Source: Actinophytocola xinjiangensis
GTDB lineage: Bacteria; Actinomycetota; Actinomycetes; Mycobacteriales; Pseudonocardiaceae
Reading direction: 5' to 3'
NCBI RefSeq assembly: GCF_001921215.1
Contig: NZ_MSIF01000006.1
Span: forward strand, 248,001 to 312,000
Length of the DNA stretch: 64,000 nt
Position 1 is the stretch's first letter. Each line of letters begins with the position of its first letter. Shown here one piece after another: positions 2,606-33,218 of the stretch. The notes beneath the pieces are model-generated. The model had not been told where the DNA came from. It made no database searches and saw nothing but the letters and a program-made list of their open reading frames with translations. Position numbers and translations under genes: made by a program.

Positions 2606-5533
2606 GTGCGATCTGAGAGAGCACGGCCGCGGTTCCGGCTGCTCGGTGCCCTACAGGTTCTGGCCGACGGACGCGAACTGCACGTCGGCGGCCTGTACTC
2701 GCAGCGGATCTTCGCGATGCTGCTACTCAATGCGAACCAGGTGGTCACCGTGGCCCGGTTGGGCGAGGCGGCCTGGGGCGCGGATCTACCCGAGACAGCA
2801 CACCGGCAGGTACGCAACCGGATCTCCGGACTGCGTCGGCTGCTGACCGGCGCCGGGGTCGTCATCGAGACGAACCGGCCTGGCTACCGTGTCCTCGTCG
2901 ACCCGGAGGATCTCGACGTGCTGGTCTTCGACCGGCTCGTCGAGCAGGCCCGCACCGCGAAGACGCCGCGCCAGGGTGCCCGAATGCTGCGTGACGCCCT
3001 GGCCTGCTGGCGGGGCCCGGCGCTCGAAGGTCTCGGCGAGCCGTTGCGCAGCGAGTCCACGGTGCTCGAGGAGAAACGGCTCGCCGCCGTGGCACGCTGT
3101 ATCGACCTCGAGATCGCCGCCGGTGACCACGCGACCACGCTGCCCGAGCTGCGCAGGCTCAATGCCGAGCATCCCCTCCATGAAGGATTCGCCGCTCGCC
3201 TGATGGTGGCGCTGCGCCGGGAGGGACGGCAGAATGAGGCACTCGCCATCTATCGCCGCCTGCGTCGCCGCCTCGTCGCCGAACTCGGCGTCGAGCCAGG
3301 TATCGAGGTTCGCCAACTGAACGAAGCCACGATCAAGGGCGAAGCCGCGGAACCGGCGACCATCGGCGCTGCCGCCCAGGTCGCGTCGGACGGGCTGCCC
3401 CATGAACTCCTCGGCGACGTCGCCGCCTTCACGGGGCGGGACAACGAGCTGGCCCGGCTCCGTCAGGTCCTTGCCGAGGCCGGCGAGTCGGGCGTACCCG
3501 GCATTCTCGCGGTGCACGGCGCGGGCGGAATCGGGAAGTCGGCCCTCACCATCCACGCGGCACATCAGCTGGCGCACGGCTATCCCGACGGCCAGCTCTA
3601 CGTTGATCTCCAGGGTGCCACCGACGGGCTTCGTCCGTTGACTCCTCTGAACGTCCTACGCCGATTCCTCCGGGTGCTCGACCCGCGCGGCGGTGACATC
3701 CCGTTCGATCTCAGCGAAGGAGCGGGCCGGTTCCGCTCCGTCACGGCGACCAGAAGAATCCTCATCGTTCTGGACAACGCCCGCGACGCGGCACAGGTCG
3801 CGCCACTGCTACCCAGCTCGGCGACCTGCGCGGTCCTGGTGACCAGCCGACGAATGCTGGCCAGCCTGAGCGGCGCGCACCATCTCCATCTCGGTGTGCT
3901 CTCCGACGCCGACGCACTGGAATACCTGGCGCGGATCAGCGGAGTCGAGCAGATCGCGAACGATCCCGCTGCCACGGAGATCATCCACTGGTGCGGAAAC
4001 CTTCCCCTTGCCCTGCGGATCGCCGGCGCGAAACTCGCCGCCCGGCCGGGATTGCGGCTGCGCGACCTGGCCGACCGCCTCGCCGACGCACGACGACGCC
4101 TCGATACCTTGGAGTTCACCGATATCAGCGTGCGCTCCAGTGTCGAGGTCTCACTGCACGAGCTCCGCAGAAGCAGCGAGCGATCGAACCGCGCTGCCGC
4201 CGACGCGCTCGTCATGCTGAGCGTGCTCGACGCGCCCTCCATCGAGGTTCGCGCCGCGGCGCGCGTGCTCGAGGCGTCCGAATCCGCCACCGAGCACACC
4301 CTCGAGAAGCTGGTGGACGTGAGCCTGTTGGAGAACGTCTCCGTCGGCCGCTACCGGCTCCATGACCTGGTCCGGCTCTACGCGCGAGAACGGGCGCTGG
4401 AGGTCATGCCGGCCGAGCACCAGGCTGCCGCGCTGAACCGGGTTCTGGCCATGTACATAGCGACGGCCTGGAACGCGTCGACACTCATCCGGCCGGGGGA
4501 TTTCCGAGCGGGGCGCCGGGACCCGCGCTGGGTCGGCGACAGCCTGACGATCGCCGACAGCGCGGCCGCGCTGGACTGGCTGGAGGCCGAACACGTCAAC
4601 CTGCTCTCGGCGATCCGCCAGGCGGCGTCCACTCCCGGTGTCGCCGCCGAAGCCGCGACCCAGCTCTCCCAAGCCGTGTACGCCTTCCTCCGGTTGCGGG
4701 GACACTGGAGCGACATGGCCGAGTCAAGCCGAATCGCGCTGACCGCGGCCCGCTCGGCCGGTAACCGCGCCGCCGAAGCCGCGGTACGCAACGACCTCGG
4801 CGCCGCCCTCTGCAAACTCGGACACTTCGCTGAGGCGATCGACTGCCTGTCCACCGGTCTGATCATCCACCGCGAACTCGGTGACCGCGACGGCGAGGCC
4901 CAGTGCCTGAGCAACATCGGCGTGGCGCACAAGATGAACGGACGACTGGACTCCGCACTGGCCTGCTACCAGGAAAGCCTCGCCATTCACGAGACGATCG
5001 GCAACCGTCGCGGCCAGGCGATGAGCCTGGGCAACCTCGGCCCGCTCCACCGAATCCAAGGTCGGTACACCGAAGCGCTGGCCTGCCACCAACGCGGCCT
5101 GGAACTCTTCCGATTACTCGGCGACCGCTACGGTCAAGCCGTCGGCCTGGTGGAACTGGGAATGCTCTACGGCCAAACCGGCCGACCAGCCGAGGCCCTC
5201 ACCTGCCTGAACGACAGCCTGGCCACCTACCGCGAAATGGGCGACCGCCACGGCGAGGCCGAAGCCCTCTGCCAACTGGGAGTCATCCAACGCGACATCG
5301 ACCTACCCGAGCAGGCCCTCATCGCCCACCAGGTCGCGATCACCCTCAGCCGCAAGAGCGACCTTCGTCTGGCCCTCGCCCACAACCTCCGAGAAATGGG
5401 GAGAACGCTCCACGCACTGGGGCGCCGGGAAGAGGCGCGCGCCGCATGGTCGGAATCCCTCACCATCTTCACCGAACTGCACACCAGCGACGCCGTCATC
5501 GTCGCCGCGCTGCTGGAAAAGGCACCCTGGTAA
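2606..5533 (+). CDS. AfsR/SARP-type regulator with NB-ARC and TPR domains
   Basis: Large transcription activator of about 975 residues. Domains in order: OmpR-like winged helix (about 9-93), bacterial transcriptional activation domain BTAD (about 100-243), NB-ARC NTPase with P-loop HGAGGIGKSA (about 304-313) and Walker B RILIVLDNA (about 390), then tetratricopeptide repeats to the C-terminus (LGD..GEA.CL.N.G pattern, 40-residue period). This is the AfsR/DnrI architecture used to control antibiotic clusters or global secondary metabolism. The GTG at 2606 is chosen because AGGGGGAG (2593-2600) sits 5 nt before it; ATGs at 2570 and 2588 are in frame but lack a ribosome site. It is transcribed away from the phosphodiesterase/methyltransferase pair, which may belong to a cluster continuing left of the window that it controls (inference). 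Confidence 0.92.
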   Translation: MRSERARPRFRLLGALQVLADGRELHVGGLYSQRIFAMLLLNANQVVTVARLGEAAWGADLPETAHRQVRNRISGLRRLLTGAGVVIETNRPGYRVLVDPEDLDVLVFDRLVEQARTAKTPRQGARMLRDALACWRGPALEGLGEPLRSESTVLEEKRLAAVARCIDLEIAAGDHATTLPELRRLNAEHPLHEGFAARLMVALRREGRQNEALAIYRRLRRRLVAELGVEPGIEVRQLNEATIKGEAAEPATIGAAAQVASDGLPHELLGDVAAFTGRDNELARLRQVLAEAGESGVPGILAVHGAGGIGKSALTIHAAHQLAHGYPDGQLYVDLQGATDGLRPLTPLNVLRRFLRVLDPRGGDIPFDLSEGAGRFRSVTATRRILIVLDNARDAAQVAPLLPSSATCAVLVTSRRMLASLSGAHHLHLGVLSDADALEYLARISGVEQIANDPAATEIIHWCGNLPLALRIAGAKLAARPGLRLRDLADRLADARRRLDTLEFTDISVRSSVEVSLHELRRSSERSNRAAADALVMLSVLDAPSIEVRAAARVLEASESATEHTLEKLVDVSLLENVSVGRYRLHDLVRLYARERALEVMPAEHQAAALNRVLAMYIATAWNASTLIRPGDFRAGRRDPRWVGDSLTIADSAAALDWLEAEHVNLLSAIRQAASTPGVAAEAATQLSQAVYAFLRLRGHWSDMAESSRIALTAARSAGNRAAEAAVRNDLGAALCKLGHFAEAIDCLSTGLIIHRELGDRDGEAQCLSNIGVAHKMNGRLDSALACYQESLAIHETIGNRRGQAMSLGNLGPLHRIQGRYTEALACHQRGLELFRLLGDRYGQAVGLVELGMLYGQTGRPAEALTCLNDSLATYREMGDRHGEAEALCQLGVIQRDIDLPEQALIAHQVAITLSRKSDLRLALAHNLREMGRTLHALGRREEARAAWSESLTIFTELHTSDAVIVAALLEKAPW

Positions 5534-9133: not shown

Positions 9134-10576
9134 ATGAAGGCGTGTGTCGTGGGGGCGGGTCCCGGCGGGATCGCCTCGGCCAAGGTGCTGGTGGACAGCG
9201 GGTTCGACGTCACCGTGCTGGACAAGTACGAGCGCGTCGGCGGGATCTGGTCACCGGGCGGGTCCTACGACGGGTTGGCCAACCAGGCGTCGCGTCGCCT
9301 GTTCGAGTTCGCGGACCTGCCCAACCGGCTGCACTACGCCAGCGCGGTCGACACCCAGCGCTACCTGGAGGAGTACGCCCGCCGGTTCGGTGTCCTGGAC
9401 CGGCTGCGGCCCGGCACCGAGGTGGTGTCCGTGCGGGCGGTCGACGGCCCCGGCCCGCTGGGATCGGCCGGCTGGCTGGTCGACTCACGCCCGGCCGGCG
9501 ACACCGGCACACCCCGGCGCGAGGAGTTCGACCACGTCGTGGTCGCCACCGGGGCGCACCACCTGCCGCAGGTGCCCGACCTGCCCGGCCGGTCCGCGTT
9601 CGGCGGGACCGTGCTGCACTCCAACGGCGTGCGCGCCGGCACCTTCACCGGCCGGCGGGTGGTGGTGGTCGGCGGCGGCAAGTCGGCGCTGGACCTGGCG
9701 ACCCGCGCGGCCCGTGACGGCGCGTCCGCGACGCTCGTGCAGCGCAGGGTGAACTGGATGATCCCCGAACGGCTGCTGCTGGGACTGGTCGGCTACAAGT
9801 GGATCCTGTTCACCCGCCTCGGTGAGGCGCTGCTCCCCCGCTACCACGACCAGGACTGCGTGCGCGCGCCCGACCGGCTCGACGACCGCGTCAAACGCGC
9901 GCTGTGGTGGCTGATCACCCGCGACATGCTGTTCTCCGCCGGGTTCTACCGGCTGCCCCGGCGGCTGCGCCCGGCCGGCCCGCTGCCCCACCACCTGGCG
10001 CACGCCGGGGTGATGCCGCGCGGCTACGTCCGCGCCGTGCGGCGGGGACGGCTCGCCACGCACGTCAGCGCCGTCGAGTCGTTCACCGCCGAGGGCCTGC
10101 GACTGGCCGGCGGCCACGAGGTGCCGGCCGACGTCGTGGTGTTCGCCACCGGGCACCGCACGGTGTTCCCGTTCCTGGATTCGCGGGTGCGCACCCACGA
10201 CGAGCACGGGCGACTGCGGCTGTACAAGGGCATCGTCGCGCCCGGCACCGAGGGGCTCGGGTTCGTCGGGTTCCGGCAGATCTTCAACAACGTGCTCGGC
10301 GTCGAACTGACCGCGCACTGGCTGGCCGCCCACCTCCGGGGTGCTCTGGGTACCACCCCGGACGAGGACCGGACCCGGGCCGCGCTCGACTGGCTGGAGG
10401 AGGTCCTGCCCGGCTCCGGCGGCTACGACTTCGGCCCGTACAACACCCACACCGCCGACGAACTCCTGCACGACCTGGGGCTGCCGTCACTGCGCGCGGG
10501 CAACGCGGTCGCCGAGTACCTGCTGCCCGGCGGCGTCGCCCACCGCTACGCCGGGCTCAGAACGGGCAGTACATGA
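9134..10576 (+). CDS. flavin-containing monooxygenase family protein
   Basis: A 480-residue two-dinucleotide-domain flavoprotein. The FAD-binding GAGPGGIASA is at residues 7-16, an ATG-like VVVATGAHHLPQVPDLPG near 140, the NADPH-binding VVVVGGGKSALDLATRA near 178, and the second-site VVFATGHRTVFPF near 340. The family fingerprint region is degenerate (FGGTVLHSN instead of FxGxxxHxxx(Y/F)), so it could oxidise N, S or a ketone (Baeyer-Villiger type). ATG 9134 follows GGAGAGGG at 9117-9124. It is divergent from the PPOX gene and its last 20 bp overlap the GNAT gene tail on the other strand. Substrate unknown. Confidence 0.85.
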   Translation: MKACVVGAGPGGIASAKVLVDSGFDVTVLDKYERVGGIWSPGGSYDGLANQASRRLFEFADLPNRLHYASAVDTQRYLEEYARRFGVLDRLRPGTEVVSVRAVDGPGPLGSAGWLVDSRPAGDTGTPRREEFDHVVVATGAHHLPQVPDLPGRSAFGGTVLHSNGVRAGTFTGRRVVVVGGGKSALDLATRAARDGASATLVQRRVNWMIPERLLLGLVGYKWILFTRLGEALLPRYHDQDCVRAPDRLDDRVKRALWWLITRDMLFSAGFYRLPRRLRPAGPLPHHLAHAGVMPRGYVRAVRRGRLATHVSAVESFTAEGLRLAGGHEVPADVVVFATGHRTVFPFLDSRVRTHDEHGRLRLYKGIVAPGTEGLGFVGFRQIFNNVLGVELTAHWLAAHLRGALGTTPDEDRTRAALDWLEEVLPGSGGYDFGPYNTHTADELLHDLGLPSLRAGNAVAEYLLPGGVAHRYAGLRTGST

Positions 10577-11042
10577 CGTGCAGCCCGACCCGCCCGAGCG
10601 TCGGATGCGCGAACGCGCCGGGAACCGTGCCCACCACCGAGAACCCGAGCCGCCGGTACAGCTCGACCGCCCCCACGTTGCTCTCGGCGACCGCGTTGAA
10701 CTGCATGCCAGCGTAGCCGCGTTCCCGCGCCCAGCCCAACGCGTGCTCGACCATCGCCCGGCCGACGCCGCGCCCCCGCACGTCGGCGGCCACCATGAAA
10801 CTCGCCGTGGACACGTGCGACCCCGGTCCCGGCCGGTTCGTCCCCATGTGCGCCGTTCCCACCACCCGCCCCTCCTCCACCGCGACGACCGTGCGCCCCG
10901 GCGGGGCGAGGACCCAGATCTGCCTGGCCTGCTCGGCGGTCAGGCCGGGGTCGTAGGTGAAGGTGTCCCCGGCGCGCACCACCTCCCGGACGATCTCCCA
11001 CACCTGCGGCCAGTCCGCGTCCTCGACGTCACGAATGAGCAT
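10557..11042 (-). CDS. GNAT family N-acetyltransferase
   Basis: A 161-residue acetyl-CoA-dependent N-acetyltransferase. The acetyl-CoA pyrophosphate loop is VRGRGVGRAMV (about 92-102), followed by NVGAVELYRRLGFSVVGTVP, the usual motif B. It resembles phosphinothricin/streptothricin-type or RimI-type GNATs, but substrate cannot be deduced. The start at 11042 lies 5 nt after TAGTGT, with no Shine-Dalgarno. Its tail overlaps the convergent monooxygenase gene by 20 bp. Confidence 0.85.
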   Translation of the reverse strand: MLIRDVEDADWPQVWEIVREVVRAGDTFTYDPGLTAEQARQIWVLAPPGRTVVAVEEGRVVGTAHMGTNRPGPGSHVSTASFMVAADVRGRGVGRAMVEHALGWARERGYAGMQFNAVAESNVGAVELYRRLGFSVVGTVPGAFAHPTLGRVGLHVMYCPF

Positions 11043-23538: not shown

Positions 23539-25323
23539 TCACGCCCCGCAGCGGCCACCGAACACGTCGGCCCGGCCGTCGCCGGTCAGGTCGGCGAGCG
23601 CCAGCGTCGAGGACGGGCAGGTCGCGCGGGCCAGCGGGGTCCACGAGGTTCGCGCGCCCGAGGAGTAGAACCACTGGGTGCTGTCGGTGCGGAACACGTC
23701 GGTGCGGCCGTCGCCGTCGAGGTCGCCGAACATGAGCGCCGACGCCGCGTAGCCCGAGGTCGCCAGCGGGGACCACCGCTCCCGGCCGGCCGAGGAGAAC
23801 TGCCACCGGTCGCCGACCAGCGCGAACACGTCGGTACGGCCGTCGCCGTCGAAGTCGCCGAAGCCCAGCGAGCCCAGCGGCAGGGTGGCCGAGGTCAGCG
23901 GGGTCCACGCGGTCCGGCCGCCGGCCGAGTAGTACCACCGGGAACCGTTGGTGCGGAACACGTCCGTGCGGCCGTCGCCGTCGAAGTCCCCGAACCGCAG
24001 GTCGGCCAGGCCGTAGCCGGAGGTGTTCAGCGTCTGCCACGCTCCCCGGCCGCCCGGGGAGAACAGCCACTCCCCGCCGGAGGCGGTGAACACGTCGGTA
24101 CGGCCGTCGCCGTCGAAGTCGCCGAAGCGCAGCGCGGCGCGGGTCGTGCCGGAGGTCGTCAGCGGCACCCAGCGACCCACGCCGCCCGGCGAGAAGTACC
24201 AGCGGTGGCCGGTCGCGCGGAACACGTCGTCGCGGCCGTCCCCGTCGAAGTCGCCGAAGCCGACCTCGGCCGCGTCGAAGGTGTAGGGCGCCAGCGACTG
24301 CCAGGAGCCGGTGCCGCCGCTGGAGACCTGCCAGGCCACCAGGCGGCGGGTGCCCTGGACGTGGCAGTTGCCGGTGGTCGTGGCGTAGGTGTTGGTGCCT
24401 ACCGTGAGGTTGCCGGTGAAGTGCAGTTGGCGTGTGGCGGTCGACGCCCCGGTGTGTGCGAAGCAGTTGCGGGTGACCGTGGCCGTGGTGGCCGGCCGGC
24501 CACGGACCACGACCGCCGGCTGGGCGCTGGAGCGGAAGCTGTTGTTGTTGATGTGGATGACGTCCCCGGCGTAGGGGGCGCCGTTGCCCAGCGCCTCGTT
24601 CTCGCCGTGCATGTCGAAGCCGTGGGAGCGGGCGTTGTCGATCACGAGGTTGTAGCGGGCCTCGTACCGCTGGGTGCGCAGGCCGTTGCCGGCGATGGCG
24701 TGCCGGTTCTGCTCGAACCGGTTGAACTCGATGATCGCGCTGGAACTGTTGTACAGCACCACCCCGTAGCCAAGGCCGGTGCGCCGGTTGTGGTGGATGT
24801 CGTTGTTGGCGACGCGCGCCTCGATGGAGTCGCCGAGGTACACCGCGCCGTGCGACCAGCCGGAGAGCTCGTTGTTGTCCACCGTCAGGTCCGAGGTCTC
24901 CAGCGCCTCGATGCCGCGCGAGTTGTCGTACTGGTAGGCGTTGTCGCGGATCTCGGTGTCCGGGCCGCGCAGCCGCAGTCCGGTGATCCGCACCCCGCTG
25001 CCCCTTGGCGAGAACTGCGCCCACGCCTCGCGGTCACCGAGGTCGAGTTCGGTGTTGTACAGCAGGGCGCCCGACGAGCCGCCGCTGCCGCGATCGCTGG
25101 CCAGGGTGACCCCGGCGGGGATGACGATCCGCTTGAGGCCGGTGAGGTTGATCGACGCGGTGCCGGCGACGGTCACCGTGTCCCCCGCCGTGGCGCCGGC
25201 CAGCGCGGCCAGCAGTTCGTCCCTGGTGTCCACCGTGACGTCGCTCGTGAGCTCGTCGGCCGTGGCGGGAGCCGGTGACATCACCAGCACCACCCCGGCG
25301 AGGACCGCACCCAGCCGTCGCAT
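23539..25323 (-). CDS. secreted beta-helix protein with six FG-GAP repeats
   Basis: A 594-residue exported protein. Signal peptide MRRLGAVLAGVVLVMSPAPA, then a right-handed parallel beta-helix (about 30-330) of the pectate-lyase/polysaccharide-lyase type (ITGLRLRGPDTEIRDNAY, DLTVDNNELSG, NNDIHHN). The C-terminus is six FG-GAP/VCBS repeats, each with a calcium-loop DFDGDGRTD and a following W.F(Y)SPGG strand. The DNA for these repeats has a strict 132-bp period. It may bind or cleave a polysaccharide outside the cell; no catalytic residues can be assigned. ATG 25323 has GGGAGG upstream. Confidence 0.85.
   Translation of the reverse strand: MRRLGAVLAGVVLVMSPAPATADELTSDVTVDTRDELLAALAGATAGDTVTVAGTASINLTGLKRIVIPAGVTLASDRGSGGSSGALLYNTELDLGDREAWAQFSPRGSGVRITGLRLRGPDTEIRDNAYQYDNSRGIEALETSDLTVDNNELSGWSHGAVYLGDSIEARVANNDIHHNRRTGLGYGVVLYNSSSAIIEFNRFEQNRHAIAGNGLRTQRYEARYNLVIDNARSHGFDMHGENEALGNGAPYAGDVIHINNNSFRSSAQPAVVVRGRPATTATVTRNCFAHTGASTATRQLHFTGNLTVGTNTYATTTGNCHVQGTRRLVAWQVSSGGTGSWQSLAPYTFDAAEVGFGDFDGDGRDDVFRATGHRWYFSPGGVGRWVPLTTSGTTRAALRFGDFDGDGRTDVFTASGGEWLFSPGGRGAWQTLNTSGYGLADLRFGDFDGDGRTDVFRTNGSRWYYSAGGRTAWTPLTSATLPLGSLGFGDFDGDGRTDVFALVGDRWQFSSAGRERWSPLATSGYAASALMFGDLDGDGRTDVFRTDSTQWFYSSGARTSWTPLARATCPSSTLALADLTGDGRADVFGGRCGA
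23560..24310 (-). repeat. 132-bp tandem DNA repeat encoding FG-GAP units
   Basis: The motif GCCGTCGCCGTC or a close variant recurs at 23575, 23707, 23839, 23971, 24103 and 24235, exactly 132 bp (44 codons) apart. All copies lie inside the FG-GAP region of the beta-helix gene and encode its GDFDGDGR loops. Confidence 0.85.
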
Positions 25324-25422
25324 GACCGCCTCCCGTGATCATCCCGTGGTCGTGCGACATCGAACCACAGCGGGGGCGCCGACAGTAGGGACCGGCGGCG
25401 GCCAACACCGTCTCATGTAGAG

Positions 25423-25436
25423 TGAACATCGGTTCA
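25423..25436. promoter_or_regulatory. TetR autoregulatory operator
   Basis: TGAAC-ATCG-GTTCA is a perfect 5+4+5 palindrome. It overlaps the last base of a -10-like TAGAGT (25418-25423) and covers the expected transcription start of the TetR gene, which suggests autorepression. Confidence 0.55.
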
Positions 25437-25458
25437 TTCAAAGACCGGAGGTGGACGG

Positions 25459-26070
25459 GTGCCACGGAGCGAGGCGCAGTACGAGGCGATGCGGGCCGAC
25501 ACCCGCGAACGGATCGAGGTCGCGGCGATCCGGCTGTTCGCCCGGCAGGGCTTCGCGGCGACCAACGTGCGCGACATCGCCCGCGAGGCCGGGATCAGCA
25601 CCGGGCTGCTGTACCGGCACCACCGGACCAAGGAGGACCTGTTCGGCGAACTGGTCACCCGCGCGGCGCAGGGCCTGAGCGGGGTCACCGCGCGGTTCCT
25701 CGCCGACGACCCGCCGGCCGAGATCATCACCGCGTTCACCGAGGAACTCGTGGCCGATGTCGTCACCAACGGCACGTTCGTGGAGTTCATGCTGATCATG
25801 AACCAGTCCTTTGCCATGGCGAACCCGCCGGCCCAGGTGCGCACGCTGATGGCCAGGCACGACGCGATGATGCGCGCCGTCGCCGACCTGATCGCGCGCG
25901 GCCAGCGCCTCGGCCGGTTCCACCCCGGCGACCCCGCCGAACTGGCCAGCTGCTGGTTCGGCGCCCTCGGCGGCCTGGCGATGCTGCGCTTCACCCTCGG
26001 GAAGCGGTTCGTCGCGCCCCGGCCCACCATGCTGACCCACTTCCTGATCAAGGAGAACACCGATGACTGA
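25459..26070 (+). CDS. TetR family transcriptional regulator
   Basis: A 203-residue TetR/AcrR regulator. The helix-turn-helix lies at residues 18-64 (RIEVAAIRLFARQGFAATNV and ISTGLLYRHHRTKEDLFGEL), followed by an alpha-helical ligand domain (FVEFMLIMNQSFAMANPPAQ, TetR_C-like). The GTG start has GGAGG 8 nt upstream, and an operator-like palindrome lies just before it. It overlaps the following GNAT gene by 8 nt, so the two are co-transcribed at the left edge of the phenazine cluster. Ligand unknown; the protein could sense the phenazine product or a drug. Confidence 0.9.
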   Translation: MPRSEAQYEAMRADTRERIEVAAIRLFARQGFAATNVRDIAREAGISTGLLYRHHRTKEDLFGELVTRAAQGLSGVTARFLADDPPAEIITAFTEELVADVVTNGTFVEFMLIMNQSFAMANPPAQVRTLMARHDAMMRAVADLIARGQRLGRFHPGDPAELASCWFGALGGLAMLRFTLGKRFVAPRPTMLTHFLIKENTDD

Positions 26071-26653
26071 GGTACGACGGGCCGACGAACTCGACGAACA
26101 CACCCGGGCCGGTCTCGGAAAGATCTTTGTCGACGGCTTCGGCGAGCACCTGGACTTCTTCGCCAAGGACCACGACCGGCTGGCGGGTGCGCTCACCCAC
26201 GCCCTGGTCCCGTCGCTGTTCCACGTCGCCCTCGTCGACGGCCGGCCGGCGGCCATCGCCGCCTGCACCGACGGCGTGCGGCTCTCCTTCCGCCACGACG
26301 GGCGGATCCTGCGCCGCGAACTGGGGACCGTCCGGGGAGCACTGGCCGACCAGGTGTTCCGGCGGACGTTCCAGAAACCGTGGACCACCACCACCAGCGG
26401 GAAGGCCTCGATCGAGTTCGTCGCGACGGCCACGGAGTTCCGTGGCCGGGGTGTGGCCACCGCCCTGATCAGCCACCTGCTGACCCTGCCCGAGTACCAC
26501 ACCTACGTTCTGGAGGAGGTCGCCGACACCAACGCCCCGGCGATCGCGCTCTACCAGAAGCTCGGCTTTCGCGAGTTCACCCGAAAGAAGGTACGGCACT
26601 TCGGTCGAACCGGAATCAACTACTACGCTTCGTTCACACTTGAACAGAAATAA
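26063..26653 (+). CDS. GNAT family N-acetyltransferase
   Basis: A 196-residue acetyltransferase. The acetyl-CoA site is TEFRGRGVATALISHL (about 131-146), and APAIALYQKLGFREF is motif B. Translation is coupled to the TetR gene (8-nt overlap). Its position between a TetR regulator and the phenazine regulator makes a self-resistance or tailoring role possible, but nothing in the sequence names the substrate. Confidence 0.85.
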   Translation: MTEVRRADELDEHTRAGLGKIFVDGFGEHLDFFAKDHDRLAGALTHALVPSLFHVALVDGRPAAIAACTDGVRLSFRHDGRILRRELGTVRGALADQVFRRTFQKPWTTTTSGKASIEFVATATEFRGRGVATALISHLLTLPEYHTYVLEEVADTNAPAIALYQKLGFREFTRKKVRHFGRTGINYYASFTLEQK

Positions 26654-26662
26654 CGATCGCCA

Positions 26663-26683
26663 TTCTCCAGAAGCGCTGGAGAA
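26663..26683. promoter_or_regulatory. stem-loop between GNAT and StrR-like genes
   Basis: TTCTCCAG-AAGCG-CTGGAGAA is a perfect 8-bp inverted repeat with a 5-nt loop, 10 bp after the GNAT stop. There is no T-tract, so it could be either a terminator for the TetR/GNAT unit or an operator for the phenazine operon. Confidence 0.45.
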
Positions 26684-26765
26684 CAGGTAGGGCATTCGTT
26701 GCCAGATCCCCTCGCCAGCATGCACCATTTGAATCACCGAACCGTCAACCGGCAGGGAGATGTGC

Positions 26766-27407
26766 ATGCCCGAGTCCGCGGTGCAGGTTTCCGGGAACGC
26801 GACCGGCGGTCAACCCAGTTCACTGGCCGACCGCAAGGCCGTCGCAGCGCGGATCGTCGGCGCGCACCCGCACTGGTCGGACCGCAGAATCGCCACCGCC
26901 GCCGGGCTGTCGGCGGCGACCGTCGCCCGGATCCGGTTGCGCAGAGCCGAACCCGACCCGCCGGACCGGCTCGGGCACGACGGCCGGACCAGGCCGGTCA
27001 ACGCGCGCGAACGCCGCCGGCACGCCCGATCACTGCTGCTCGACGAACCCACCCTGTCGCTGCGTGAGGTCGCCCGGCGCGCCGGGCTCTCCCCGGAGAC
27101 CGTCCGGTCGGTACGCTCCCAGCTGCACCGCGGCGAACCGGCGCCCGCGCCCGAACCGGGCCCCGACCCGACCGCGGTCCTCGCCCAGCTGCGCGGTGAT
27201 CCCCGACTCCGGTTCTCCGAGTCCGGCCGGGAACTGCTGCGGCTGCTGGACCTGCACACGATGCCGGCCCGACGGTGGGCCGCGTCCGCGAACACCGTGC
27301 CGCCGCACTGCCGGGACGCCGCAGCGCGAGTCGCGCGGGAGTGCGCGCGGGCCTGGCACACCTTCGCCGAGCGGCTCGAACGCACGACCGCCACCGAGGC
27401 GAGCTGA
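26766..27407 (+). CDS. StrR-like pathway regulator without ParB domain
   Basis: A 213-residue regulator. [20 protein letters not shown] and [13 protein letters not shown] form a helix-turn-helix, and [19 protein letters not shown] a second one. The C-terminal [20 protein letters not shown] and [18 protein letters not shown] match the C-terminal region of StrR/NovG-type antibiotic regulators. Those proteins carry an N-terminal ParB-like domain of about 100 residues, which is absent here. ATG 26766 is preceded by AGGGAG with 6-nt spacing; ATG 26760 abuts it. Only 23 bp separate it from phzD, so it heads the phenazine operon and probably activates it. Confidence 0.7.
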
Positions 27408-27430
27408 CCACCGGTCGTCAGGAGACAGCC

Positions 27431-28051
27431 ATGGGAATCCCACCGATCGCGGCCTACCCGCTACCCAGCGCCGGTGACCTGCCGGCCAACGTCGCCGACT
27501 GGACGGTCGACCCCGACCGCGCGGTCCTGCTGATCCACGACATGCAGCGGTACTTCCTGCGGCCCTTCCCGGACGAGATCGCGCTGCCGCTGGTCAGCAA
27601 CGTCGCCGACGTCCTCGACCGGTGCCGCGCGCAGGGCGTCCCGGTCCGCTACACCGCCCAGCCCGGCGGCATGACCGACGGCGAACGCGGTCTGCTGAAG
27701 GACTTCTGGGGCGCCGGCATGACCGTCGAACCGGCCGACCGCGAGATCGTCGAACCGCTCGCGCCCCAGCCGGGCGACCACACGTACACGAAGTGGCGCT
27801 ACAGCGCGTTCCACCGCTCCGGCCTGCTCGCCGAACTCCGCGAGCTGCGCCGCGACCAGCTGGTCATCTGCGGTGTGTACGCGCACGTCGGCGTGCTGAT
27901 GACCGCCGTCGAGGCGTTCACCAACGACATCGCGCCCTTCGTCGTCGCCAACGGCACCGCCGACTTCACCCCCGAGGACCACCGGCTGGCCCTGGACTAC
28001 GCCGCCCGCCGCTGCGCGGTGGTGTGCACCGCCAAGGAGGTGCTCCGGTGA
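27431..28051 (+). CDS. phzD: isochorismatase family protein PhzD
   Basis: A 206-residue enzyme that hydrolyses 2-amino-2-deoxyisochorismate to trans-2,3-dihydro-3-hydroxyanthranilate and pyruvate. It aligns along its whole length with Pseudomonas Phz[18 protein letters not shown] with catalytic Asp37, [34 protein letters not shown] with Lys121, and [17 protein letters not shown]. Asp38 and Lys122 of PhzD correspond. ATG 27431 follows AGGAGA. It is the second gene of the operon and overlaps phzE by GTGA. Confidence 0.93.
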
Positions 28052-29955
28052 TAGCGCGGCTCCTCGGCGCGACGCCCCAGCCGTTCGCGATCCTGCACCG
28101 CCCCAACTCCACCGGCGACGACCTCGACGTCCTGGTCGGCGAGGTGTCCACACCGGACACCCTGGCCCGGGTCACGCTGCCCGACACCGGCCCGCCCGGC
28201 CACGACGTGCTGGTGCTGGTCCCCTACCGGCAGATCACCGAACGCGGCTACGCCGCCGTGGACGACGGGTCGCCGCTCATCGCGCTCACCGTCACCCAGC
28301 AGGCCGTACTGCCCAGGAACGACGTGCTGGCCAGCCTGCCTGACACGCCGATCCCGTTGGCCGGCGGCCATTTCGACCCCGACGACGACGCCTACGCCGG
28401 GCTGGTGCGACGGATCATCGACGAGGAGATAGCCCACGGCACCGGCGCGAACTTCGTCGTCCGGCGCTCGTTCGTCGCCGAACTGCCCGGCTTCGGTCCG
28501 GCCGCCGCGCTGACCCTGTTCCGCCGGCTGTGCGAACGCGAGTCGGGCGCCTACTGGACCTTCGTCGTGTACACCGGCGAGCGCACGTTCGTCGGCGCCA
28601 CCCCGGAGCGACACGTGAGCCTGCGCGACGGGGCCGCGGTGATGAACCCGATCAGCGGCACCTACCGCTACCCGCCCTCCGGGCCGACGCTCGCCGGGCT
28701 GATGGAGTTCCTCAACAACACCAAGGAGAACGACGAGCTGCTGATGGTCGTCGACGAGGAACTCAAGATGATGGCCCGGATCTGTGCCTCCGGCGGGCGG
28801 CTGACCGGGCCGTACCTCAAGGAGATGACCCGGCTCGCGCACACCGAGTACCTCATCGAGGGCCGCTCGGCCATGGACCCCCGCCAGATCCTGCACGAGA
28901 CGATGTTCGCGCCGACGGTCACCGGCAGCCCGGTGGAGAGCGCCTGCCGGGTGATCAGCCGCTACGAGCCGGGCGGGCGCGGCTACTACAGCGGGATCAT
29001 CGGGCTCATCGGTCGCGACGAGGACGGCCGGCGTGAGCTGGACTCGGCGATCCTCATCCGCACGGCTGAGATCGGTCACCGGGGGCAGCTGCGGATCGGC
29101 GTCGGCGCCACCCTCGTACGGCACTCCGACCCGGACTCCGAGGTCGCCGAGACCCGCACGAAGGCCGCCGGCCTGCTCTCCGCGTTCGACGTCGACGGCC
29201 CGGTCAGGTTCGGCGAGCGGCCCGAGGTCCAGGCCGCGCTGAACCGGCTCAACGCGCCGCTCGCCGGGTTCTGGCTGGCCGACAACCGCCAGGAGGTCGG
29301 GCCGACGGCGCTGGCCGGGCGGTCGGTGCTGGTCGTCGACGCCGAGGACACGTTCACCGCGATGATCGCCCAGCAGCTGAGCACCCTCGGGCTCGACGTG
29401 ACCGTGCGCCGCTTCGACGAGCCGTACTCGTGGCAGGACCACGACCTGGTGATCATGGGCCCCGGCCCCGGCGACCCCCAGGACACCGGCGACCCGAGGA
29501 TCGCGCACCTGCACACGGCCATCGAGACGCTGCTGGCGCGGCGCCGGCCGTTCCTGGCGGTGTGCCTGAGCCACCAGGTCGTCAGCCTCAAGCTGGGTCT
29601 GCCGGTGCGCCGCTGCGCGGCGCCCAACCAGGGCACCCGCTCGGAGATCGACCTGTTCGGCGAGCGGGAGGTCGTCGGGTTCTACAACTCCTTCGCCGCG
29701 CACGCCACCGCCGAGGTCGTCCACCACCCGAGGGCCGGGCGGGTCGAGGTCAGCCGCGACGAGGACACCGGCGAGGTGCACGCCCTGCGCGGACCGCACT
29801 TCGCGACCATGCAGTTCCACCCCGAGTCGGTGCTCACCAAGGACGGGCCGAGAATCCTGGCCACCCGGATCAAGGAGGTGCTGGACAAGCATGCGAGCCA
29901 CCGTCACGTGGTGGGACCTGAGCACGTCGACCCAGACCATCGACTCATTGCGTGA
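28048..29955 (+). CDS. phzE: 2-amino-2-deoxyisochorismate synthase PhzE
   Basis: A 635-residue fusion of a chorismate-binding (anthranilate synthase I-like) domain and a class I glutamine amidotransferase, as in PhzE. The first domain shows [29 protein letters not shown] and [14 protein letters not shown]. The second shows [14 protein letters not shown], the nucleophile in [16 protein letters not shown] and the His/Glu pair in MQFHPESVL. It converts chorismate and glutamine to 2-amino-2-deoxyisochorismate, the committed step. The GTG start has AAGGAGG 7 nt upstream and overlaps the phzD stop. The last 65 nt are shared with the next gene in another frame, so the final 20 residues are probably non-essential. 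Confidence 0.93.
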
Positions 29956-30232
29956 ACACCTGCGCGACGGCGGGGCGGCGGCGTGGGCCGGGATACCCGG
30001 TCTGCGCCTGAAGTTCTGGATCTCCGACCGCGCCGGCAACCGGTGGGGCGCGGTGATGCTGTGGGAGCCCGGTCATCCCCGGCCCGACCAGCCGCTGCCG
30101 CCCTACCGCGCCCTGGAGCTGATCGGCTACCCGCCGACCGAGCGGATCGTGTTCGACGTCGAGGCCACCGTCGAGGGCAGCTACGCGGTGGCCGCTCTGT
30201 CCGGTCTCGGCCTGGCCGTGGAGGAACCGTGA
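29891..30232 (+). CDS. YdhR-like small ferredoxin-fold protein
   Basis: A 113-residue protein of the dimeric alpha-beta-barrel type. WAGIPGLRLKFWISDRAGN followed by WGAVMLWEPGHP matches the core strand pair of YdhR/ABM-like putative monooxygenases. The ATG lies 11 nt after AAGGAGG, and its first 65 nt overlap phzE in another frame. Its own stop overlaps the phzG start (GTGA). Its place inside the operon points to a role in phenazine formation, perhaps a cofactor-free oxidation or capture of an unstable intermediate, which is inference. Confidence 0.65.
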   Translation: MRATVTWWDLSTSTQTIDSLREHLRDGGAAAWAGIPGLRLKFWISDRAGNRWGAVMLWEPGHPRPDQPLPPYRALELIGYPPTERIVFDVEATVEGSYAVAALSGLGLAVEEP

Positions 30233-30822
30233 CCGAACCGATCACAGCTCCGACCGCGGCTCCGATCGCGCTGGCCAGGGACTGGCTCGCCGAGGCGGTG
30301 GCGGCGGGGGTGAGTGAGCCGGGCGTGCTGTCGCTGGCGACGGTGAGTGCCGCCGGGCGGCCGTCGAACCGGATCGTGGCGACCATCCGGATCACCGACC
30401 ACGGTCTGGTCTTCGCCAGCTACACCACCAGCCCCAAGGGCCGCGACCTCGCCGCCACCGGCTGGGCGTCGGGGGTGCTGTACTGGCGGGAGTCCCGCCG
30501 GCAGGTCATCCTCACCGGCCCGGTCGAGCAGCTCACCGACGAACAGAGCGACGAGCTGTGGTTCGCCAGGGCGCCGGGCCTGCACCCGATGTCGGTGGCC
30601 ACCACGCAGAGCGCGCCGCTGACCGACGAGGACGCGCTGCGCACGCGGGTCCGGGAGCTGGCCGCGTCCGGCGAGCCGCTGGACCGGCCGGCGGCCTGGG
30701 TCGGCTACCAGCTCGTGCCGTCCACTGTGGAGTTCTGGGAGGACCGGCCGGAGCGGTTCTACTGGCGGATGCGCTACGACCGTGACGGGCAGACGTGGAC
30801 GCACACCCGACTTCAGCCGTAG
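30229..30822 (+). CDS. phzG: FMN-dependent phenazine oxidase PhzG
   Basis: A 197-residue pyridoxamine-phosphate-oxidase-fold flavoenzyme. GVLSLATVSAAGRPSNRIV is the FMN-binding opening, FASYTTSPKGRDLAATGWA and LYWRESRRQVILTGPVEQL follow, and VEFWEDRPERFYWRMRY is the family end motif. PhzG oxidises the tetrahydrophenazine produced after PhzA/B. The GTG overlaps the preceding stop, and GAGGA sits just upstream. The last 10 bp overlap the convergent phzF. Confidence 0.88.
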   Translation: MTEPITAPTAAPIALARDWLAEAVAAGVSEPGVLSLATVSAAGRPSNRIVATIRITDHGLVFASYTTSPKGRDLAATGWASGVLYWRESRRQVILTGPVEQLTDEQSDELWFARAPGLHPMSVATTQSAPLTDEDALRTRVRELAASGEPLDRPAAWVGYQLVPSTVEFWEDRPERFYWRMRYDRDGQTWTHTRLQP

Positions 30823-31640
30823 AACGAGCCGCGCGCGACCACGACCGCCGACCCGGACACCTCGACCCGGTCCACCCGGTCGCCCGCGCCGGTCGCGGTG
30901 GCCAGCATCCGCGACGGCCGGCCCATCTCGACGCCCTGCCAGATCTCGATCCGGTCGCCGTAGGCGATGCGGCCGTGCCGGGCGAGGTGCACCGCCAGCG
31001 GGCCGGCGGCCGAGCCGGTCGCCGCGTCCTCGGCGACCCCGTAGGCCGGCGAGAACATCCGCAGCCGCCAGGACTCGCCCGCCGGGGCGAAGCAGTTGGC
31101 GGCGACGTCGAGGTGGTCGGCCAGCGCGCGCTGGTCGGGGCGCAGCGCCGAGAGCGCCCGCACGTCCGGCAGGCCGACGTAGACGTGCCGGGGACCGTTG
31201 CGGTAGACCTCGACCGGCAGCGTCGAGTCGGTGATTCCCAGTGCCGCCACCAGGTGCGCGGACTGGGCGTAGGGCTCCCAGGTCGGCACCGGCTGGCGCA
31301 TCGTGGCCGACAGGACCGCGCGCGAACGGTCGTAGGTGAACGGCACGGTGCCCATGCCGGTCTCCATCAGCAGCCGGTCCCGGTCACCGGCCAGCACGAT
31401 CGCGGTGCCCAGCGTGGGGTGGCCGGCGAAGGACAGTTCGTTGACCGGCGTGAAGATCCGCACCCGCACGTCACCGTCACGCTCGGGCGGCAGCACGAAC
31501 ACCGTCTCCGAGAGGTTCATCTCCCTGGCCAGCCGCTGCATGCGGTCGGCGCTCAGACCGGCGGCGGCCAGGAACACCGCGACCGGGTTGCCGGACAACG
31601 GTTCCTCGGCGAAGACATCGGCGACGACATATTCCAGCAT
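30813..31640 (-). CDS. phzF: trans-2,3-dihydro-3-hydroxyanthranilate isomerase PhzF
   Basis: A 275-residue diaminopimelate-epimerase-fold isomerase. Key PhzF residues are kept: Glu45 in NLSETVFVLP, His74 in SFAGHPTLGTA, and Asp205 in EDAATGSAAGPL (Asp208 in PhzF). It tautomerises DHHA to the aminoketone that dimerises to the phenazine ring. It lies on the strand opposite to the other phz genes, convergent with phzG (10-bp overlap) and divergent from phzB. The ATG has no ribosome site; TATTTT lies 6 nt upstream. Confidence 0.9.
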   Translation of the reverse strand: MLEYVVADVFAEEPLSGNPVAVFLAAAGLSADRMQRLAREMNLSETVFVLPPERDGDVRVRIFTPVNELSFAGHPTLGTAIVLAGDRDRLLMETGMGTVPFTYDRSRAVLSATMRQPVPTWEPYAQSAHLVAALGITDSTLPVEVYRNGPRHVYVGLPDVRALSALRPDQRALADHLDVAANCFAPAGESWRLRMFSPAYGVAEDAATGSAAGPLAVHLARHGRIAYGDRIEIWQGVEMGRPSRMLATATGAGDRVDRVEVSGSAVVVARGSFYG

Positions 31641-31646
31641 TGGTCA

Positions 31647-31652
31647 AAAATA
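31647..31652 (-). promoter_or_regulatory. -10 element TATTTT, leaderless phzF
   Basis: TATTTT on the minus strand ends 6 nt before the phzF ATG at 31640, and no Shine-Dalgarno is present. Confidence 0.5.
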
Positions 31653-31690
31653 GCGCGCGGAGGCGCGCGGAAATGAGCAGTTGGACACGT

Positions 31691-31734
31691 TTGACAGTTT
31701 CCGTCCGGCGCCGTTACAAGTGGGATCCGGACGG
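31691..31734 (+). promoter_or_regulatory. phzB promoter with inverted repeat operator
   Basis: A perfect -35 TTGACA (31691-31696) is followed after 18 bp by a weak -10 TACAAG (31715-31720). An 8-bp inverted repeat, CCGTCCGG (31701-31708) and CCGGACGG (31727-31734), 18 nt apart, brackets the -10. This is a natural site for a pathway regulator acting on phzB-phzM, perhaps the StrR-like protein. Confidence 0.55.
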
Positions 31735-31752
31735 TCGGAAGATTGGCGGGCC

Positions 31753-32223
31753 ATGAACGCATTCGAGCAGAACGTCGAGACGCGACGCCACAACCGGGCC
31801 GTGGTGGAGGACTACATGAGCCGCCGGGGTGAGGGCCGGCTCACCCGGTACGAACTGTTCACCGACGACGGCAGCGGCGGGCTCTACACCGGCGACACCA
31901 TGGAGCCGATCATCTCCGTCGGCCGGGACAAGCTCAAGGCGCACGGCGCCTGGTCGCTGAAGATCTTCCCGGACTGGGTCTGGTACAATGTCGAGATCTT
32001 CGAGACCCAGGACCCGGACCGGTTCTGGGTGGAGTGCGACGGCAAGGGCCAGATCCTGTTCCCGGACTACCCGCCCGGCCAGTACGAGAACCACTTCCTG
32101 CACGCGTTCCGCTTCCGCGACGGCAGGATCTGTGAGCAGCGCGAGTTCATGAACCCCTACCACCAGATGCGCGCGCTGGGCATCGACATCCCGGTGATCA
32201 AGCGCGCCGGAATCCCGACATGA
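31753..32223 (+). CDS. phzB: phenazine biosynthesis protein PhzA/PhzB
   Basis: A 156-residue NTF2/ketosteroid-isomerase-fold protein matching PhzA/B nearly end to end: NRAVVEDYMSRRGEGRLTRY, GLYTGDTMEPI, WSLKIFPDWVWYNVEIFETQ, RFWVECDGKGQILFPDYPPG, YENHFLHAFRFRDG and the terminal KRAGIPT. It promotes condensation of two aminoketone molecules. Only one copy is present, as is usual outside Pseudomonas. The ATG at 31753 begins the conserved protein; an in-frame TTG at 31681 would lie inside the promoter. It overlaps the next gene by ATGA. Confidence 0.92.
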   Translation: MNAFEQNVETRRHNRAVVEDYMSRRGEGRLTRYELFTDDGSGGLYTGDTMEPIISVGRDKLKAHGAWSLKIFPDWVWYNVEIFETQDPDRFWVECDGKGQILFPDYPPGQYENHFLHAFRFRDGRICEQREFMNPYHQMRALGIDIPVIKRAGIPT

Positions 32224-33218
32224 GCGGGGACGTGACGGCCGCCAGCACCGTGGTCGAGCTGATCACCGGCGGCTGGCGCGCCCAGGCCGTCTACACGGCG
32301 GTGAAGCTGCGTCTGCCCGACCACATCGAGGACGGCCGGACCACCGACGCCGAACTGGCCGCCGCGTCCGGCGCCAGGGAGGACGGCATCCACCGGCTGA
32401 TGCGGCTGCTGGTGGCCATGGACGTGTTCGCCGGCACCGGCGCCGGCTACCGCAACACCGACGTGAGCCGTGCGCTGCTGGACCGGCCCGGCTCGCAGCG
32501 GGACATGTGCCTGCTCTACGGCGAGGACTTCTACGCGGCCTGGGGCCACGCCGCCGAGGCGATCAGCACGGTCGGCTCCGGGTTCGAGCTGGCCTACGGC
32601 CGGCCGGTGTACGAGTATTTCACCACCGACCCGGCGGCGGCCGAACGGTTCCAGGGCGCGATGCGCGCCGGCAACCTGTTCTTCGACGCGGTGCCCGGCG
32701 TGTTCGACTTCGCCGGCCGGCGGGTGGTGGACCTCGGCGGCGGCTCGGGGCAGCTGCTGGGCGCGATCCTGGCGGCCACCCCGGACGCCCACGGCGTGCT
32801 GCTGGACCTGCCGAACGTGGTGGCCGCCGCGCGGACCCGGCTGGCGCACCTGGCCGGGCGGCTGGACCTGGTCGCCGGCGACATGTTCGAGGCGGTGCCC
32901 GCCGGCGGCGAGGTGTACCTGCTGTGCCGGGTGCTGGCCGGGCACTCCGACGAGGCGGTGGTGAAGCTGTTCACCGACGTGCGGAACAACCTCACCGGTC
33001 AGGACGCGCGGCTGCTGCTGCTGGACCGGCTGGTGGTCGACGAGAACTCCACCGTGCTGCCGGCACTGTGGGACCTGCACCTGCTGATGACCACCGGCGG
33101 GCGGCACCGCTCGCGTGCCGAGCTGGAGGTGTTGCTCGACCAGGCGGGTCTGGAGGTCGAGCGGGCGGCCGACCTGCCGGTGGAGACCACCGCGCTGGTC
33201 GTGCGCCGGCGGGACTGA
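32220..33218 (+). CDS. phzM: phenazine-1-carboxylate N-methyltransferase, PhzM-like
   Basis: A 332-residue SAM methyltransferase with an N-terminal dimerisation domain. It shares long stretches with Pseudomonas PhzM (334 residues): IHRLMRLLVAMDVF, MCLLYGEDFYAAWGHA, GSGFELAYG, VVDLGGGSGQLLGAIL (motif I, about 168-183) and LWDLHLLMTTGGRHRS. Ordinary O-methyltransferases have a catalytic His in L-H-D-W; here that segment is CRVLAGHSDEA, and PhzM also lacks HDW. N5-methylation of phenazine-1-carboxylate is the most likely reaction. It is translationally coupled to phzB (ATGA) and ends at the terminator. Confidence 0.82.
   Translation: MSGDVTAASTVVELITGGWRAQAVYTAVKLRLPDHIEDGRTTDAELAAASGAREDGIHRLMRLLVAMDVFAGTGAGYRNTDVSRALLDRPGSQRDMCLLYGEDFYAAWGHAAEAISTVGSGFELAYGRPVYEYFTTDPAAAERFQGAMRAGNLFFDAVPGVFDFAGRRVVDLGGGSGQLLGAILAATPDAHGVLLDLPNVVAAARTRLAHLAGRLDLVAGDMFEAVPAGGEVYLLCRVLAGHSDEAVVKLFTDVRNNLTGQDARLLLLDRLVVDENSTVLPALWDLHLLMTTGGRHRSRAELEVLLDQAGLEVERAADLPVETTALVVRRRD

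Follow-up and report, generated by a model that had tools for sequence, protein, structure and literature searches.

The window analysed here, a stretch of 64,000 nucleotides from Actinophytocola xinjiangensis (positions 248001-312000 of one contig, NZ_MSIF01000006.1, in a genome of 9.5 Mb and 72 contigs), contains at 26760-33218 a unit that probably specifies the complete core pathway of phenazine biosynthesis and an N-methyltransferase, which together would make 5-methyl-phenazine-1-carboxylic acid (5-methyl-PCA), along with a small gene, termed gene x below, whose NosA-like product might act at the stage of 2-amino-2-deoxyisochorismate (ADIC) or trans-2,3-dihydro-3-hydroxyanthranilate (DHHA). 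Operons for N-methylated phenazines are a known class, of which this unit is a member; the new element is gene x, which lies between phzE and phzG and was overlooked in the gene list of an earlier note on this DNA. The constituents of the unit are as follows:

26760..27407, plus strand: helix-turn-helix (HTH) regulator (Pfam HTH_24, E=4.3e-6)
27431..28051, plus strand: phzD, predicted isochorismatase converting ADIC to DHHA and pyruvate (PDB chain 1nf9, PhzD, 281.6 bits; PF00857)
28048..29955, plus strand: phzE, predicted ADIC synthase with chorismate-binding and glutamine amidotransferase parts (3r74, 693.3 bits)
29891..30232, plus strand: gene x, NosA-like small protein of 113 residues (profile and Foldseek matches to NosA)
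30229..30822, plus strand: phzG, predicted flavin mononucleotide (FMN) oxidase (NCBIfam NF038138, PhzG, 260 bits; 1t9m, 185.1 bits)
30813..31640, minus strand: phzF, predicted DHHA isomerase, oriented against the rest of the operon (1t6k, PhzF, 358.2 bits)
31753..32223, plus strand: phzB, the single PhzA/B (PF03284, 4.4e-71; 3ff0, 220 bits)
32220..33218, plus strand: PhzM-type methyltransferase (2ip2, PhzM, 277.7 bits; PhzM clade with support 100/100)

Overlaps of four bases join phzD to phzE, x to phzG (GTGA) and phzB to the methyltransferase gene, while phzE and x overlap by 65 bases; the end of phzF on the minus strand overlaps the end of phzG, and this inversion of phzF is a layout common to the relatives. 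The start of phzG was assigned from its GTGA overlap with gene x, and that of phzB is the ATG at 31753.

Core enzymes and the methyltransferase

All five types of core enzyme, PhzD, PhzE, PhzF, PhzG and PhzA/B, are encoded in the unit. The best PDB chains of PhzD, PhzF and PhzB are labelled 'phzD', 'phzF' and 'phzB 2', that of PhzE anthranilate/para-aminobenzoate (PABA) synthase component I, and that of PhzG probable pyridoxine phosphate (PNP) oxidase; we take the latter two, 3r74 and 1t9m, to be PhzE and PhzG, chains labelled phzG reaching 159.1 bits. The motifs around what are presumably the catalytic residues are retained in alignments of the core enzymes. The claim of the earlier note that phzD, phzE, phzG, phzF and one phzA/B are intact stands on these matches and motifs, although PhzG falls 10 bits below the NCBIfam cut-off of 270 in a scan that used a longer start. 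By analogy with the known families, PhzE would form ADIC from chorismate and glutamine, PhzD would convert ADIC to DHHA with release of pyruvate, PhzF would isomerise DHHA, PhzB would guide the dimerisation and PhzG would carry out oxidation, with the PhzM-type enzyme predicted to methylate N5 of (dihydro)phenazine-1-carboxylate.

The product of the last gene aligns with the Pseudomonas aeruginosa PhzM chain 2ip2 across residues 4-330, in agreement with the whole-length match noted before, and the next PDB chain scores 162.7 bits. A scan of genome contigs with an alignment of four methyltransferases yielded 45 loci, from 43 of which 44 sequences entered a tree of 55 rows, together with the window enzyme, locus L021, six paralogues from the same genome and three reference chains (in the partial form given out by HMMER); the split matches of L074 and L075 and a split paralogue (L029) were left out, and six of the ten other places in the own genome were included. 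In this tree a clade of 41 rows (support 100/100) unites P. aeruginosa PhzM with the window enzyme, with LaPhzM, MmcR and the six paralogues outside it. The branch of the P. aeruginosa chain is long, and support for its precise position inside the clade is weak (91/72). The tree rows nearest to the window enzyme are actinobacterial; among named relatives it is closest to the enzymes of Actinophytocola algeriensis (85% identity) and A. gossypii (65%). On a quick tree, forcing the window group together with LaPhzM cost 85.5 log units (approximately unbiased test, p-AU 3.01e-7) and with MmcR 49.4 log units (p-AU 0.0016), so that both groupings were rejected. The column of the histidine that we take to be catalytic in O-methyltransferases has lost it in every one of the 41 clade rows, which show Ala or Gly there (Ala in the window), and holds His in 13 of the 14 other rows, the sole row outside the clade without it being L021.

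Thus the phylogeny proposed in the earlier note places the enzyme with PhzM, its statement that the H-D-W of O-methyltransferases is lacking agrees with the alanine in the histidine column, and the grouping with PhzM, the loss of the histidine and the linkage to core phz genes occur together in an enzyme that has neither the H-D-W motif nor the clade position of LaPhzM. The enzyme very probably methylates a ring nitrogen, and, given its grouping with PhzM and away from the tested O-methyltransferases, N5-methylated PCA or a relative, as had been proposed, is the best call for the product. It is very unlikely that it is instead an O-methyltransferase, with a hydroxylated phenazine as substrate or with the methyl ester of PCA as product. 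It does carry the Pfam O-methyltransferase domain PF00891, is related to the phenazine O-methyltransferase LaPhzM (155.9 bits) and has a Rhizobium relative annotated as an acetylserotonin O-methyltransferase, but the rejected groupings and the absent histidine speak against such an activity, as does the lack of a nearby match to a PhzS-type hydroxylase that could supply the acceptor hydroxyl.

Phenazine N-methyltransferases of actinomycetes have precedents in the literature. Deletion of PpzM in Streptomyces anulatus was reported in 2012 to abolish the N-methylated endophenazine B (PMC3326630), and phzM homologues of about 55% identity have been published from Streptomyces phz clusters (PMC7591250). 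Given these reports and the actinobacterial nearest rows in the tree, an actinobacterial cluster with a Pseudomonas-like PhzM is not as unusual as the earlier note had presented it. The S. anulatus cluster is like the window in having an actinomycete phenazine N-methyltransferase and, as far as described in PMC3326630, no PhzS orthologue, but differs in its prenylation, mevalonate and phzC genes and in gene order. It is represented in the tree by an endophenazine-like locus of Streptomyces tuirus (L065) rather than by PpzM itself; this locus has genes for 3-hydroxy-3-methylglutaryl coenzyme A (HMG-CoA) synthase and mevalonate decarboxylase beside the phz genes, its methyltransferase falls inside the PhzM clade, and it lacks gene x. 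P. aeruginosa PhzM shares with the window enzyme the clade, the whole-length match and the loss of the histidine, but it works with PhzS towards pyocyanin.

Gene x and its relation to NosA

The product of gene x falls below every Pfam and NCBIfam cut-off. A profile (A2) of 27 relatives recovered from the PDB, at E-values up to 10, one distinct sequence, NosA (4za1, E=2.2e-25), the terminal amide synthase of nosiheptide, and the window protein and NosA are identical at 51 of 106 aligned residues (48%). An AlphaFold2 model of x (predicted local distance difference test, pLDDT, 79.7; predicted template modelling score, pTM, 0.69) likewise points to NosA, whose three chains lead the Foldseek list with E-values of 9e-10 to 4e-9, all later hits being at 2e-3 or worse. 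In nosiheptide maturation NosA breaks a C-N bond, with release of pyruvate; the mutants K49A, which may disturb folding too, and E101A are inactive, E101D is active, and removal of loop 112-151 abolishes activity (PMC4525488). The two residues K49 and E101 match K41 and E91 of the window protein, and the lysine is retained in 58 of 58 x-type sequences (the 27 relatives and 31 other matches) and in all four plasmid copies described below.

The profile matches a single copy in the own genome. In the 40 loci of the PhzM clade x is found in 28, and in 26 of the 29 that have a near-complete phzE (the exceptions being L036, L038 and L065); in 24 of the 26 clade loci with both genes it lies within 200 bases of phzE, L034 and L048 being the other two. 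A sample of 396 genomes of the phylum gave matches in six, two of them weak, and one genome with a phz cluster (G171) lacks x. Among 392 Streptomyces genomes, 56 contain 66 matches. In flanks of 1.5 kb (30 loci) or about 3 kb (36 loci), less at contig ends, 42 of these matches are accompanied by a PhzE of more than 200 bits, seven by phz genes of another kind and 17 by none. The idea that x always goes with PhzE does not fit these counts; two of the 17 (L135, L136) showed no phz match over 20 kb. One profile match (L091) adjoins DNA polymerase and phosphodiesterase genes.

Eleven Streptomyces loci (L094, and L125-L134, picked for PhzE without PhzF or PhzG), read over 12.9-19.9 kb, all encode a 3-deoxy-D-arabino-heptulosonate 7-phosphate (DAHP) synthase, PhzD, PhzE and x; a flavin adenine dinucleotide (FAD) monooxygenase is present in nine, a berberine-bridge-type oxidase in seven and a 5-enolpyruvylshikimate-3-phosphate (EPSP) synthase in five, and no phzF, phzG, phzB or PhzM match was found in any. 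These clusters look like ones for DHHA-derived products other than phenazines. Limazepine, paulomycin and related pathways similarly share the PhzE and PhzD steps to DHHA (PMC5958127, PMC4425429, PMC4802897), but the gene tables of this type available to us list no small gene beside ADIC synthase, unlike the window.

On plasmids, 13 records match x, and the four that were read place x-like genes in three classes of Pseudomonadota and in Rhodococcus. In the plasmids of Burkholderia ubonensis, Rhizobium leguminosarum and Escherichia coli the small gene directly follows an anthranilate-synthase-like gene, and in that of Rhodococcus qingshengii x is fused to PhzF, as the N-terminal portion of a protein of 394 residues. 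The R. leguminosarum plasmid pRL3 (L138, 3014-12391) carries a phenazine cluster of the order D-E-x-G-asnB-B-methyltransferase with phzF on the opposite strand. Its methyltransferase, the one annotated as an acetylserotonin O-methyltransferase, is 57-64% identical to its eight best PhzM-clade rows, so that an N-methylated phenazine carboxamide is its likely product. The plasmid of E. coli O170:H18 (L139, 3662-16279) combines an x-like gene of 35% identity with genes for PhzA/B, D, E and F, for an oxidase of the PhzG type and for a non-ribosomal peptide synthetase. To our knowledge, the phz operons of Pseudomonas are without x.

Because x ends near the equivalent of NosA residue 119, without the C-terminal loop 112-151, it is to be regarded as NosA-like and not as a thiopeptide amide synthase; it also differs from NosA in its setting, which is that of PhzD-PhzE operons, here a phenazine operon, and not of a thiopeptide cluster. 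Since x accompanies phzD and phzE where phzF, phzG and phzB are missing, ADIC or DHHA is the stage at which it is best placed, and the fusion with PhzF agrees with this. There it may act on the carbon-nitrogen link between amine and pyruvate. A candidate substrate would be a ketimine or ring-closed adduct, formed if the ADIC amine captured the pyruvyl carbon of the adjacent enolpyruvyl ether during PhzD catalysis, and an alternative would be a condensation product of released pyruvate with DHHA. In either case x would provide a repair or flux-keeping step, used for phenazines as well as for further compounds made from DHHA, with a link to the maturation of thiopeptides. That x is a dedicated NosA-like C-N hydrolase of the amine-pyruvate link in PhzD-PhzE pathways, both in Actinomycetota and in certain Pseudomonadota plasmids and a single record of a cyanobacterium, is offered tentatively, as a role that we consider rather unlikely to be correct in full.

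Several observations weigh against it: the phenazine loci L036, L038, L065 and L021 do without x; 17 of the Streptomyces matches have no phz gene in the flanks covered; the loop needed by NosA is missing; and the column of E101 holds E in 55, D in one and A in two of the 58 sequences, and among the four plasmid copies E in one, His in two (Rhizobium, Rhodococcus) and Ala in one (E. coli). It is quite possible, though we would stop short of calling it probable, that x is instead an oxygenase of the YdhR or antibiotic biosynthesis monooxygenase (ABM) type or a non-catalytic partner of PhzE. The Pfam ydhR family matches x weakly (E 0.078 for the window and 0.0032 for L061), the Foldseek hits after NosA are 1wd6 (E. 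coli JW1657, presumably YdhR) and other ABM-fold proteins, the tight coupling of x and phzE would fit a partner protein, and the glutamate is replaced in some relatives. Yet NosA is nearer both in sequence, as the only distinct PDB sequence recovered, and in fold (E 9e-10 versus 2e-3), and the invariant lysine argues for a NosA-like function. A further idea, that x replaces PhzS as the partner of PhzM-type methyltransferases, was rejected, as x is absent from L065, which has such an enzyme, and is present beside phzE in loci without a PhzM-type match (L019 and those of the L094 type).

In the Dermacoccus abyssi genome the copy of x is tabulated as a hypothetical protein, 'thio_amide', with a 'YdhR family protein' as nearest relative (PMC7143476), and accounts of the phenazine core usually give it seven genes, phzA-G (PMC3326630). 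Among open-licence papers no study of the role of x or of a link between NosA and phenazines was found. If x is catalytic, the ADIC/DHHA stage would include a step or side reaction not recognised so far, and the pair of PhzE with a NosA-like protein could serve as a search tag for natural products derived from DHHA.

Product and precursor supply

Matches to PhzS, PhzH and class-II DAHP synthase were sought in 22001-43000 of the window at an E-value of 1e-6 and identities of at least 45, 50 and 45%, respectively, and none was found. Genome-wide, the best match to the PhzS homologue of a Streptomyces locus (L073) has just 34% identity (85.5 bits) and the best to PhzH 36-37%. The earlier remark that no PhzS-type hydroxylase is adjacent is borne out, and neither the pyocyanin pathway nor a carboxamide pathway is indicated here. 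As neither PhzS nor PhzH is matched, the product should stay an acid, 5-methyl-PCA, and be neither pyocyanin nor a carboxamide. PhzH is matched in 22 of the 40 clade loci, including that of A. algeriensis (L031), whose phzH relative was discounted, since only a remnant of about 83 residues, broken up over two frames, is left of it upstream of phzD (4658-4904); the other two Actinophytocola loci, the window and L045, have none. In Streptomyces sp. AV19 (L073, 9983-12317) a PhzM-clade gene has directly after it a homologue of PhzS, which scores 402.7 bits against 3c96, a chain that we take to be PhzS. This actinobacterial phzM-phzS pair, possibly for a pyocyanin-like product, is the only such match among the 40 clade loci.

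Likewise no phzC is matched there, as had been stated, in contrast to Pseudomonas, whose clusters include this gene, and class-II DAHP synthase is matched in 12 of the 40 clade loci. Elsewhere in the genome three sites match it (one whole, two in two pieces each), which makes the proposed supply of precursors from outside the cluster reasonable.

Two published results tell against the predicted 5-methyl-PCA: as related in PMC3326630, purified PpzM methylated neither PCA nor dihydro-PCA, and PhzM required PhzS in vitro, so that the activity of an N-methyltransferase without PhzS is not self-evident. The core could also yield phenazine-1,6-dicarboxylate instead of PCA, with the methyltransferase then giving an N-methylated dicarboxylate, in line with the skeleton of the dermacozines, an outcome that we regard as improbable. 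The dermacozine locus of D. abyssi (L022, L061) is like the window in having D-E-x-G as well as F, B and a PhzM-clade methyltransferase (57%) on one contig, and a dicarboxylic route has been proposed for this producer (PMC7143476), whose products are a family of N-methylated reduced phenazines. However, its gene order is different and it has PhzH- and phzC-type genes, both of which the window lacks. In strain MT1.1 (L061) the PhzM-clade gene lies beside the phz genes at 10001-11002, and the genome paper, in the portion available, names another methyltransferase for the methylation.

Conservation and limits of the unit

Five of the 45 scanned loci (L068-L072, 39-42% identity) form a sister group to the PhzM clade and have no phz match in flanks of up to 10 kb on each side, whereas one or more phz core genes accompany the methyltransferase in 39 of the 40 clade loci, and three or more in 33; the exception, L066, begins near a contig end. 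Genes in the loci were counted by tblastn, as the open reading frame (ORF) caller missed some. The order D-E-x-G-F(inverted)-B-methyltransferase is found in nine of the 40, namely in Actinophytocola (two), Streptomyces (two), Kibdelosporangium (three), Rhodococcus (one) and Actinocrispum (one), G-F(inverted)-B-methyltransferase in 11 and F(inverted)-B-methyltransferase in 13; extra genes may intervene in such orders, as seems to be so in L039 and L067 between phzG and phzF. In the phylum sample, PhzA/B matches with E < 1e-60 came from three genomes, the own one included.

The earlier note had drawn the cluster from 25459 to 33218. The part from about 26760 is conserved, but the TetR (25459) and GNAT (26063) genes at its left end gave no match at E 1e-4 in six relatives and none above 120 bits in a further comparison, so that the conserved unit is taken as 26760-33218. 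The downstream genes for an MpaB-like protein, an aldehyde dehydrogenase and an alcohol dehydrogenase were set aside after the same two comparisons; the single flank match in the six relatives is an AMP-ligase (24%) in L018.

Homologues of the regulator occur in 13 of the 40 clade loci. At 11 of the 12 loci compared, the counterpart is a longer protein (320-483 residues), to whose C-terminal region the window protein corresponds; the latter is without about 105 N-terminal residues present in these (lengths from the ORF caller, which may be off), a stretch that by eye is ParB/StrR-like; further tblastn hits of this part in 25001-28000 all have E 0.18 or worse. The unit is presumed to be expressed. 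The shortened regulator counts against this, as does the sister cluster of A. algeriensis, which has no clear copy of it (best E 0.003 over 37 residues) and just the remnant of phzH. Nevertheless, an intact but silent or decaying cluster in this strain seems unlikely, as all seven structural genes have uninterrupted reading frames and share 75-92% identity with their A. algeriensis counterparts (x 85%), and the regulator of Crossiella (L060), the twelfth compared locus, is similarly short.

An 18.7 kb contig assigned to the cyanobacterium Nostoc parmelioides (L063) has a phenazine cluster of the order D-E-x-G-H-B-methyltransferase-F, for which contamination is possible, and in Streptomyces albus subsp. 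chlorinus (L037) a single phenazine cluster has two PhzM-clade methyltransferases, separated by about 7 kb.

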